From positions 38,631,375 through 38,695,374 of the forward strand of contig CAIIXF020000005.1 of NCBI GenBank assembly GCA_903813345.2: a stretch of DNA of 64,000 bases. The letters are read 5' to 3'. The position numbers and the translations under genes were made by a program. Shown in pieces: positions 24,701 through 33,700 of this stretch. The notes beneath the pieces are model-generated. The model had not been told where the DNA came from, ran no database searches, and was given only the letters and a program-made list of their open reading frames with translations. Position 1 is the first letter of the stretch, and every line of letters begins with the position of its first letter. The DNA is from Owenia fusiformis. Taxonomy: Eukaryota; Annelida; Polychaeta; Sabellida; Oweniidae.

Positions 24701-27700
24701 TTTTGACCTTTTTACCTTGAGAAGGTCATTGAAGGTCAAGTCTTAAATTTAAAAATCAGATTTGAATTTGCGAGAATTTGTAGATGATTTAAAAAAATAA
24801 TTGGTCAATTTTAATTCAGGCAAGTTGAAAATATACTTTTTTGACCTTTTTACCTTGAGAAGGTCATTGAAGGTCAAGTCTTAAATCTAAAAATCAGATT
24901 TGAATTTTTGAGAATATGTAGATGATCTTGGACAAAAAATTAAAAATACACTTTTGACCTTTTTTGACCTTGAGAAGGTCATTGAAGGTCAAATCTAAAG
25001 ACAGAGTTGAATATTGAAGTCAGTCTAAACAAGTTAGTGGAAGTTATAAGAATTTGTTACAGACACCAACCGCTGAAATGCCAACCATTAACCACCAACC
25101 ACCGTCACAAAAAAGGGAGACCATAACAATATGTCATCACTTTTGGTGCTGAGATAAAAACCATATAAAATTACACTTTATTTACCTCAAAGTTAACACA
25201 CACTTACCTTATATGACTCCACATCAACATCTGCATTCCGCTTAGATAACTTGCTCCCATCTCTAAAATACAAATGCACAATGAAAGGAAGCATGGAACC
25301 CCATTTATGTTCAATGTTTGGGTGTGTGTTCAATGATAAAAGTAAATTACTCACACGTTAATCAAGAGGGGTTGGTGAGTATATTGTGTTGATCAAAGTA
25401 CTCACAAGTTAAGCAAGACGGGTTGGTGACTATATTGTGTTTATCAAAGTACTCACAAGTTAATCAAGAGGGGTTGGTGAGTATATTGTGTTTATCAAAG
25501 TACTCACAAGTTAAGCAAGAGGGGTTGGTGACTATATTGTGTTTATCAAAGTACTCACAAGTTAAGCAAGACGGGTTGGTGACTATATTGTGTTTATCAA
25601 AGTACTCACAAGTTAATCAAGAGGGGTTGGTGACTATATTGTGTTTATCAAAGTACTCACAAGTTAAGCAAGAGGGGTTGGTGACTATATTGTGTTTATC
25701 AAAGTTCTCACAAGTTAAGCAAGAGGGGTTGGTGACTATATTGTGTCTATCAAAGTACTCACAAGTTAAGCAAGAGGGTTTGGTGACTATATTGTGTCTA
25801 TCAAAGTACTCACAATTTAAGCAGGAGGGGTTGGTGACTATATTGTGTTTATCAAAGTACTCACAAGTTAAGCAGGAGGGGTTGGTAACTATATTGTGTT
25901 GATCAAAGTACTCACAAGTTAAGCAAGAGGGGTTGGTGACTATATTGTGTTGATCAAAGTACTCACAAGTTAAGCAAGAGGGGTTGGTGACTATATTGTT
26001 TATCAAAGTACTCACAAGTTAAGCAAGACGGGTTGGTGACTATATTGTGTTGATCAAAGTACTCACAAGTTAAGCAAGAGGGGTTGGTGACTATATTGTG
26101 TTGATCAAAGTACTCACAAGTTAAGCAAGAGGGGTTGGTGACTATATTGTGTTTATCAAAGTACTCACAAGTTAAGGAAGAGGGGTTGGTGACTATATTG
26201 TGTTGATCAAAGTACTCACAATTTAAGCAAGAGGGGTTGGTGAGTATATTGTGTTTATCAAAGTACTCACAAGTTAAGCAAGAGGGGTTGGTGACTATAT
26301 TGTGTTTATCAAAGTACTCACAAGTTAAGCAAGAGGGGTTGGTGACTATATTGTGTTTATCAAAGTACTCACAAGTTAAGCAAGAGGGGTTGGTGACTAT
26401 ATTGTGTTTATCAAAGTTCTCACAAGTTAAGCAAGAGGGGTTGGTGACTATATTGTGTCTATCAAAGTACTCACAAGTTAAGCAAGAGGGTTTGGTGACT
26501 ATATTGTGTCTATCAAAGTACTCACAAGTTAAGCAAGACGGGCGGGTGACTATATTGTGTTTATCAAAGTACTCACAAGTTAATCAAGAGGGGTTGGTGA
26601 CTATATTGTGTTTATCAAAGTACTCACAAGTTAAGCAAGAGGGGTTGGTGACTATATTGTGTTTATCAAAGTTCTCACAAGTTAAGCAAGAGGGGTTGGT
26701 GACTATATTGTGTCTATCAAAGTACTCACAAGTTAATCAAGAGGGGTTGGTGACTATATTGTGTTTATCAAAGTACTCACAAGTTAAGCAAGACGGGCGG
26801 GTGACTATATTGTGTTTATCAAAGTACTCACAAGTTAATCAAGAGGGGTTGGTGACTATATTGTGTTTATCAAAGTACTCACAAGTTAATCAAGAGGGGT
26901 TGGTGACTATATTGTGTTTATCAAAGTTCTCACAAGTTAAGCAAGAGGGGTTGGTGACTATATTGTGTCTATCAAAGTACTCACAAGTTAAGCAAGAGGG
27001 TTTGGTGACTATATTGTGTCTATCAAAGTACTCACAATTTAAGCAAGAGGGGTTGGTGACTATATTGTGTTTATCAAAGTTCTCACAAGTTAAGCAAGAG
27101 GGGTTGGTGACTATATTGTGTTCATCAAAGTACTCACAAGTTAAGCAGGAGGGGTTGGTGACTATATTGTGTTTATCAAAGTTCTCACAAGTTAAGCAAG
27201 AGGGGTTGGTGACTATATTGTGTCTATCAAAGTACTCACAAGTTAAGCAAGAGGGTTTGGTGACTATATTGTGTCTATCAAAGTACTCACAATTTAAGCA
27301 AGAGGGGTTGGTGACTATATTGTGTTTATCAAAGTACTCACAAGTTAAGCAAGAGGGGTTGGTGAGTATATTGTGTTTATCAAAGTACTCACAAGTTAAG
27401 CAAGAGGGGTTGGTGACTATATTGTGTTTATCAAAGTACTCACAAGTTAAGCAAGAGTGGTTGGTGAGTATATTGTGTTTATCAAAGTACTCACAAGTTA
27501 ATCAAGAGGGGTTGGTGACTATATTGTGTCTATCAAAGTACTCACAATTTAAGCAAGAGGGGTTGGTGACTATATTGTGTTTATCAAAGTTCTCACAAGT
27601 TAATCAAGAGGGGTTGGTGACTATATTGTGTCTATCAAAGTACTCACAATTTAAGCAAGAGGGGTTGGTGACTATATTGTGTTTATCAAAGTACTCACAA

Positions 27701-30700: not shown

Positions 30701-33700
30701 TACTCACAAGTTAAGCAGGAGGGGTTGGTGAGTATATTGTGTTTATCAAAGTACTCACAAGTTAAGCAGGAGGGGTTGGTGACTATATTGTGTTTATCAA
30801 AGTACTCACAAGTTAAGCAAGAGGGGTTGGTGAGTATATTGTGTTTATCAAAGTACTCACAAGTTAAGCAGGAGGGGTTGGTGACTATATTGTGTTTATC
30901 AAAGTACTCACAAGTTAATCAAGAATGGTTGGTGACTATATTGTGTTTATCAAAGTACTCACAAGTTAATCAAGAGGGGTTGGTGACTATATTGTGTTTA
31001 TCAAAGTACTCACAAGTTAATCAAGAGGGGTTGGTGACTATATTGTGTTTATCAAAGTACTCACAAGTTAAGCAAAAGGGGTTGGTGACTATATTGTGTT
31101 TATCAAAGTACTCACAAGTTAAGCAAAAGGGGTTGGTGACTATATTGTGTTTATCAAAGTACTCACAAGTTAAGCAAGAGGGGTTGGTGACTATATTGTG
31201 TTTATCAAAGTACTCACAAGTTAAGCAGGAGGGGTTGGTGACTATATTGTGTTTATCAAAGTACTCACAAGTTAAGCAGGAGGGGTTGGTGACTATATTG
31301 TGTTTATCAAAGTACTCACAAGTTAAGCAGGAGGGGTTGGTGACTATATTGTGTTTATCAAAGTACTCTCAAGTTAAGCAAGAGGGGTTGGTGACTATAT
31401 TGTGTTTATCAAAGTACTCACAAGTTAAGCAAGAGTGGTTGGTGAGTATATTGTGTTTATCAAAGTACTCACAAGTTAAGCAAGAGTGGTTGGTGAGTAT
31501 ATTGTGTTTATCAAAGTACTCACAAGTTAAGCAAGAGGGGTTGGTGAGTATATTGTGTTTATCAAAGTACTCACAAGTTAAGCAAGAGGGGTTGGTGACT
31601 ATATTGTGTTTATCAAAGTACTCACATTTAAGCAAGAGGGGTTGGTGACTATATTGTGTTTATCAAAGTACTCACAAGTTAAACAAGAGGGGTTGGTGAC
31701 TATATTGTGTTTATCAAAGTACTCACGAGTTAAGCAAGAGGGGTTGGTGACTATATTGTGTTTATCAAAGTACTCACGAGTTAAGCAAGAGGGGTTGGTG
31801 ACTATATTGTGTTTATCAAAGTACTCACAAGTTAAGCAGGTGGGGTTGGTGACTATATTGTGTTTATCAAAGTACTCTCAAGTTAAGCAGGAGGGGTTGG
31901 TGACTATATTGTGTTTATCAAAGTACTCACAAGTAAAGCAGGAGGGGTTGGTGACTATATTGTGTTTATCAAAGTACTCACAAGTTAAGCAGGAGGGGTT
32001 GGTGACTATATTGTGTTAATCAAAGTACTCACAAGTTAAGCAGGAGGGGTTGGTAACTATATTGTGTTGATCAAAGTACTCACAAGTTAAGCAAGAGGGG
32101 TTGGTGACTATATTGTGTTGATCAAAGTACTCACAAGTTAAGCAAGAGGGGTTGGTGACTTTATTGTGTTTATCAAAGTACTCACAAGTTAAGGAAGAGG
32201 GGTTGGTGACTATATTGTGTTGATCAAAGTACTCACAAGTTAAGCAGGAGGGGTTGGTGACTATATTGTGTTGATCAAAGTACTCACAAGTTAAGCAAGA
32301 GGGGTTGGTGACTATATTGTGTTGATCAAAGTACTCACAAGTTAAGCAGGAGGGGTTGGTGACTATATTGTGTTTATCAAAGTACTCACAAGTTAAACAA
32401 GAGTGGTTGGTGACTATATTGTTTATCAAAGTACTCACAAGTTAAGCAAGACGGGTTGGTGACTATATTGTGTTGATCAAAGTACTCACAAGTTAAGCAA
32501 GAGGGGTTGGTGACTATATTGTGTTTATCAAAGTACTACTCACAAGTTAAACAAGAGTGGTTGGTGACTTTATTGTGTCTATCAAAGTACTAACAAGTTA
32601 AGCAAGAGGGGTTGGTGACTATATTGTGTTTATCAAAGTACTCACAAGTTAAGCAAGAGGGGTTGGTGACTATATTGTGTTTATCAAAGTACTCACAAGT
32701 TAAGCAAGAATGGTTGGTGACTATATTGTTTATCAAAGTACTCACAAGTTAAGCAAGAGGGGTTGGTGACTTTATTGTGTTTATCAAAGTACTACTCACA
32801 AGTTAAACAAGAGTGGTTGGTGACTTTATTGTGTTTATCAAAGTACTCACAAGTTAAGCAAGAGGGGTTGGTGAGTATATTGTGTTTATCAAAGTACTCA
32901 CAAGTTAAGCAAGAGCATTTGGTAACTATATATTGTGTTTATCAAAGTACTCACAAGTTAAGCAAGAGGGGTTGGTGAGTATATTGTGTTTATCAAAGTA
33001 CTCACAAGTTAAGCAAGAGTGGTGGGTAACTATATATTGTGTTAACATTAAAATACTTACGAGTTCAGCAAGAGAGGTAGGTGAGCATATTCTGGAGGAT
33101 CCCAACCAAAAGCTTTGTAAAGTTGAAGATGTTTTGGTGTTGAGATGTACCACTCCTTCAAAAGAATTAAAATTCTTATCACAAATATAGCATGCATGTT
33201 TCCGGCTCAAAACTGGCTTGTTTATGACTCCTAACATGGTATATTTGGTTATTTCTAAACATGTCACCATGAAAACCCCACGTTTGGACAGTGCTTTACA
33301 AATGATGTCACAAGTTATTTCATTTTGCATTGTGTAATTTTTTAGGATGTAAGATGGCTGTATCTTATTGGATAAATACCAGAGGAGGAGATTCAATATG
33401 ACTATGAATCTCAAAATGTAACATTTTTTCATGAAAACAATGGGGCTAATTTCATTTTGCTGACAGTTAACACTTATCTAGTTACATTGTATATTAAACA
33501 GTAGCTTCTAACAAAGATGATAATTTTGAACAATAGCATAAAATCTCATCCATAATGGCTGAATATGAGTAATAGTCATATCATGACAAAATATTCAAGC
33601 CTACCTCTCCTCGTAAAACATGTGTGATGCTCATAGCATGGTCATCAATGACGTTAGCCAAATGGTAGGTAGGAAAACCATCACTCTTCATCAGCACCTT

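Follow-up and report, generated by a model that had tools for sequence, protein, structure and literature searches.

EARS2 intron 8 and its 51-bp array

Within a stretch of 64,000 nucleotides (nt) of contig CAIIXF020000005.1 (the window), we characterized the EARS2 gene, whose eighth intron is filled, except for 81 nt at its 3′ end, by a tandem repeat with a unit of 51 base pairs (bp). Exon-by-exon tblastn with the human EARS2 protein as query placed the gene on the minus strand, with exons in order from 36701 to 21788. A search with the EARS2 protein returned 7998 hits. Among the 120 listed, the best rows that carry a name are mitochondrial glutamyl-tRNA synthetases, the best identity is 65% and no row is named Branchiostoma, some rows having no name. 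A tree of EARS2 proteins did not place the host, and no COX1 was found in the assembly. Exons 8-9 match the Pfam family PF00749 (tRNA-synt_1c) at 6.6e-10. The features around intron 8, in window positions, are as follows.

33061..33155, minus strand: EARS2 exon 8, 95 nt, whose last 34 nt correspond to the exon-derived part of the unit (tblastn, borders, alignment)
33055..33060, minus strand: true donor of intron 8, GTAAGT, with the donor G at 33060
25344..33091, minus strand: 51-bp tandem array, overlapping the end of exon 8 (Tandem Repeats Finder, unit split, per-column conservation)
28821..30146, minus strand: a block of 13 units (663 bp) in the array, present as two identical, adjacent copies
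25349..25354, minus strand: last of the decoy donors (GTGAGT), at 92 nt from the intron end
25263..25343, minus strand: non-repeat part of the intron, 81 nt, ending in the acceptor TTTTAG
25208..25262, minus strand: EARS2 exon 9, beginning at 25262 and continuing as DGSKLSKR (tblastn, borders)

Exon 8 ends in phase 2, and all five homologues that we fetched cross the join between exons 8 and 9 without a break (for example, Capitella LLLNKDGKKLSKR). Thus, the true donor at 33060 is the conserved one. A first-pass annotation of this DNA had put the donor at 33061, which is one base off and is the last base of exon 8. Its other measurements of the intron held: the donor and acceptor, described as 7.8 kb apart, bound an intron of 7798 nt, and the part outside the repeat, given as about 80 bp, measures 81 nt.

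Tandem Repeats Finder reported a single array in intron 8, with a period of 51, 151.8 copies and 95% matches, in agreement with the earlier description of the intron as an approximately 150-copy array of its own exon 8/donor junction. When split into units, the array consists of a junction copy, 150 more copies and a truncated final copy. Ungapped comparison of the unit consensus (read from the donor, GTGAGTACTTTGATAAACACAATATAGTCACCAACCCCTCTTGCTTAACTT) with the exon 8 end revealed matches at 27 of 34 positions upstream of the donor, beyond which the match ceases, while 11 of 14 positions match the first bases of intron 8 downstream of the donor. As proposed in the first-pass annotation, the unit is therefore the end of exon 8 plus the start of the intron.

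We determined whether this likeness could be due to chance. The last 51 nt of the exon aligned locally to the unit with a score of 36, while 5000 dinucleotide shuffles gave a mean of 12.7 and a maximum of 26, with none reaching 36. The exon end thus resembles the unit better than shuffled sequence does, and chance likeness was rejected. Among 11,230 other 51-mers of the window (taken at 10-nt steps on both strands), the highest score was 29. When a probe of two units was searched against the whole 498-Mb assembly, all 71 reported matches fell inside the intron 8 array; the counts are lower bounds, and common words were skipped. We therefore rejected a dispersed satellite family as the source. 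That an unrelated satellite of this kind was inserted into intron 8, with a fortuitous likeness to the exon end, is next to impossible, given the shuffles, the match that stays in register on either side of the donor, and the confinement of the reported matches to the EARS2 locus. Instead, our data support derivation of the array from the EARS2 exon 8/donor junction. Since the exon side of the unit is a conserved synthetase segment in five of five homologues, the direction was from exon to repeat.

The array contains 49 unit types among its 150 copies and an exact duplication of a 13-unit block, the two blocks starting at the copies at 30146 and 29483. This structure fits repeated unequal exchange or slippage. 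An open reading frame of 1813 amino acids also runs antisense through the array (window 26207-31648, plus strand), a mechanical consequence of the 51-bp unit being free of stops in that frame.

Decoy donors in the array

As the first-pass annotation had noted, nearly every copy carries a GTGAGT donor. In the 150 complete later copies, GT is kept in 148 and GTGAGT in 135, the remaining hexamers being GTGAGA (12 copies), GAGAGT (2) and GTTAGT (1). Immediately past the true donor, the sequence reads TCG TAA in frame with exon 8. Thus, every use of a decoy retains an in-frame TAA in EARS2, consistent with the premature stop that had been predicted.

These features could be read as signs that the array is regulatory, in that decoys would bind U1 or cause poison splicing (through the TAA and transcript decay), with copy number tuning EARS2. 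Both the near-universal GT and the position of the stop codon fit this idea, as does the frequency of mismatches, which is 0.017 per site in the donor hexamer and 0.028 in the rest of the unit. However, the copies are homogenized and not independent, so this difference is weak, and we do not use it as evidence of selection on the decoy donors. We consider a regulatory array, including the lowered synthetase expression or U1 buffering raised in the first-pass annotation, very improbable, also because arrays of the same layout sit in unrelated genes, as described below.

Boundary duplications in the window and the genome

Two other exon-intron boundaries in the window are duplicated. The first-pass annotation had missed both, as well as the cases elsewhere in the genome and the lancelet precedent discussed below.

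45742..46286, minus strand: second array (54 bp x 10.1) in an EF-hand gene, with a unit that joins the last 42 nt of an exon to the first 12 nt of the intron (Tandem Repeats Finder, sequence, homologues)
46245..46341, minus strand: exon of the EF-hand gene whose end seeds the second array
35514..35553, minus strand: end of EARS2 exon 3 and start of intron 3, a 20-bp junction (8 exon nt and 12 intron nt) in two copies

The EF-hand exon is backed by homologues that run on into the following exon with nothing inserted (29 hits, 5 of which were aligned with the query). Its array has nine more copies of GTAAGT after the true donor, eight of which are equal in U1 pairing and one weaker. Of the added units, two can be read through in an open frame (CKYRVSIMAKGSLVEKIP), which is then shifted by the deletion of one base in the third unit. 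EARS2 exon 3 shows a single duplication of its junction, AGATGAAG|GTAAGTT, and this two-copy state may represent the earliest stage of such an array.

To look beyond the window, we searched the assembly for triplets of donor motifs. For GTAAGT at a spacing of 36-66 nt, the matches listed all lie on one sequence, C1, between 0.28 and 3.46 Mb. From these we took six regular arrays, leaving aside an irregular one at 1252 kb and a dispersed GTAAGTAACTGAG family found in four places. An exon-like end, which we judged by an upstream acceptor-like AG, an open frame and a donor, marks the start of four of them: L029 (tetraspanin-like), L031, L032 (BLOC1S5/Muted) and L034. No exon-like end was present at the array start in the other two (L030 and L033). 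In L034 (C1:1050700-1052100, minus strand), the unit comprises an entire exon of 30 nt flanked by its acceptor and donor, in about four copies; its peptide may resemble mTOR.

For AGGTRAGT, the matches listed reach 12.0 Mb on C1 and contain six independent arrays: L029 and L032 again, L035, L036 (Rieske-like), L038 and one at 11974 kb. Exon-like ends mark the start of five of these, although only about 6 nt of the L036 unit are exonic. The remaining one (L039 with L050), degenerate in the vicinity of an exon-like end, was scored as ambiguous; L037, a second block of the L036 family, was left out of the count. Triplets of the acceptor motif TTTTCAG (1640 matches versus 302) mostly belong to a dispersed family. 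From the acceptor-pattern matches listed we fetched one array, L049 (C1:20246500-20247360), chosen for its exonic look. It is an exon/donor array with 49-bp units, each of which combines an acceptor with 26 nt of exon end and the donor GTAGGC. Units of this type are a possible route to intron gain. Together, the 12 arrays outside the window for which edges were fetched comprise eight with exon-like ends, two without, one ambiguous and one not independent.

Pfam backs three of the seven exons submitted to it, the L034 peptide being too short for scanning. Muted (5.9e-15) and Rieske_4 (3.4e-8) score above the cut-off, and tetraspanin (0.058) falls below it, although its match occupies the expected part of the profile. 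The exons of L031, L035 and L038 match no Pfam family at E values up to 10. Extrapolating from 4 arrays per 3.46 Mb, or 5-6 per 12 Mb, at the start of one chromosome suggests, as a rough figure, 200-600 such arrays in the genome.

The other arrays bear on whether decoys are regulatory, since in the fetched parts of the EF-hand gene, L029 and L035 arrays the frame is open or partly open, which misfits a shared poison design.

We also asked whether donors are preferred seeds. In that case exon/donor junctions would be favored sites of tandem duplication (for example, through co-transcriptional spliceosome binding or R-loops), and the arrays would be more than minisatellites that fell on a splice site by accident. 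AGGTRAGT triplets gave 1056 matches, compared to 529 for the reversed motif TGARTGGA, and distinct arrays, counted by eye among the matches listed, numbered 6 in 12.0 Mb versus 16 in 89.6 Mb (p = 0.022, Poisson; p = 0.038, conditional). Single sites were no more frequent for AGGTRAGT (18) than for TGARTGGA (26) in a 256-kb sample, so the excess of arrays does not come from a commoner motif there. However, these are small numbers, with one control motif, and GTAAGT triplets showed no excess, with 7610 raw matches compared to 7919 when the motif was reversed. This lack of excess argues against a strong donor preference, and we regard a donor-linked origin as rather unlikely.

In a hexamer test of the window plus a sample, 18 clusters were found compared to a control mean of 3.5 (4.6 normalized), with none of 60 controls as high. 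We dropped this test because single arrays had been split into several clusters; merged by eye, the clusters amount to six loci, three in the window plus L014, L017 and L027, with an exon-end position shown only for the three in the window. Periods that are always a multiple of 3 were rejected, as only 5 of 11 are divisible (51, 54, 20, 54, 62, 52, 54, 33, 38, 25 and 49). The automatic unit measure was irregular for EARS2 (period 55 with a 22-nt exon match, the first copy having insertions), L034 (108) and L038 (24 with a 4-nt match), the first copies of the latter two being irregular; for these three we used values from the consensus alignment or the sequence itself. Microhomology at the seams was dropped because a tandem array cannot separate seam homology from the unit start.

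Several other repeats were observed. A dispersed family with TTTTCAGTACAT units, present in both orientations (for example, at C1:293555, 1625795, 6229545, 15153967 and 24340837), dominates the acceptor-pattern matches. Arrays of 145- and 149-bp units, tRNA-like in look, occupy L014 (1-4567 and 8307-9852) and L021 (3936-5055). In the window, degenerate tandem arrays with no obvious donor lie at 55044-55360 and 91-566 (31-bp and 24/48-bp units), and adjacent open frames of 311 and 1282 amino acids lie at 4532-9316 on the plus strand, putatively gag and pol of a Gypsy-type retrotransposon.

Origin of the array and relation to lancelet mirages

A model that very probably accounts for the EARS2 array is that it is an exon/intron-boundary minisatellite, grown from a duplication of the junction, in which growth was tolerated and the first donor was kept. 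It would have begun as a short tandem duplication across the boundary, taking in the 3′ end of exon 8 and the first bases of the intron. Inside the intron, the repeat may then have expanded to approximately 152 copies by unequal exchange or slippage during replication, with whole blocks also being duplicated. Growth downstream would be tolerated because the first, exon-attached copy keeps the coding constraint and the donor, and we infer that the array is close to neutral. The same layout at 45742-46286, the two-copy state at EARS2 exon 3 and the exon-like ends of 8 of the 12 arrays elsewhere all count in favor of a boundary minisatellite.

Judging from the sequence, splicing most likely continues to use the first donor by way of exon definition, as this donor ends a 95-nt exon with its own acceptor and is transcribed first. 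Some observations weigh against this model. With regard to an escape of edge units from homogenization, a trait of mirages (see below), the number of mismatches per unit is highest on the exon side (1.9 in the first 20 copies) and lies between 0.6 and 1.8 in later blocks of ten, yet there is no rise at the far end of the array (1.5 in the last block). Duplex energies, calculated with the U1 5′ end, depend on how pairing is modeled. With free pairing, the true donor (-7.6 kcal/mol) is stronger than the best three decoys (-7.2) and than the 131 decoys that score -6.9 (out of 151, counting the truncated last copy). With a fixed register, however, the true donor (-5.9) is worse than 12 decoys at -6.9 and than the last decoy (-6.5). 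Since the two measures disagree, U1 pairing gives no clear preference for the first donor. In addition, 92 nt separate the last decoy (25354) from the end of intron 8. The two modes of splice-site recognition therefore predict opposite donors: intron definition would favor the last decoy, giving a 92-nt intron, and exon definition the first donor.

Arrays of this kind have been described as "mirages" in amphioxus, where minisatellite-like tandem duplications of exon-intron boundaries occur in the Adh3 and globin genes, with units of 10-72 bp in Adh3 and about 150-160 bp in globin genes (excerpts of PMC3087553). PGBD5 and troponin C are further cases (excerpt of PMC3902484). Among the papers listed by our searches of one open-access library, those recognized as describing boundary-spanning arrays concern lancelets. 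As in mirages, the EARS2 units straddle the exon-intron boundary inside the intron, many of them carry splice signals, and the true boundary is at the edge of the array. The EARS2 array thus fits the sequence definition of a mirage and would be expected to work like one; in lancelets, RT-PCR (reverse transcription-polymerase chain reaction) suggested undisturbed splicing (excerpts of PMC3087553). It differs from lancelet mirages in its host, which is probably different, and in its approximately 152 units, compared to the 6 and 3 units of two BflGb6 haplotypes described in those excerpts, which point to length instability. For the EARS2 array, the exact 13-unit block duplication would be an indirect sign of such instability in the one assembly analyzed. 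The unit length, concerted variants and block duplications are those of ordinary intronic minisatellites. From these, the EARS2 unit differs in taking in the end of the exon and, in almost all copies, a donor that looks functional.

The array also resembles the Rogers model, in which introns are gained by tandem duplication of AG/GT proto-splice sites (as cited in the excerpts of PMC3087553), in being a tandem duplication that involves splice-site sequence. In contrast to that model as cited, an existing intron was lengthened in EARS2 and no new intron is seen. The cases closest to the model in this form are L034 and L049, whose units contain both an acceptor and a donor.

We conclude that the EARS2 array is a very long example of the repeat type described in lancelets and that this genome holds more of them; its length and these further cases are the main points of interest. 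A wider proposal is that exon-donor junctions are recurrent minisatellite seeds in a host that is probably not a lancelet, perhaps leaving hundreds of genes with few to approximately 150 decoys, above chance, donor-linked and tolerated by splicing. We hold this only tentatively, as more doubtful than probable. If the first donor is used despite approximately 150 near-identical competitors, the locus would be a natural test of splice-site choice, as exon definition and the order of synthesis favor the first donor and intron definition the last. With the further cases in one genome, it becomes possible to test across many genes how donors are chosen, how introns grow and whether boundary duplication leads to intron gain.

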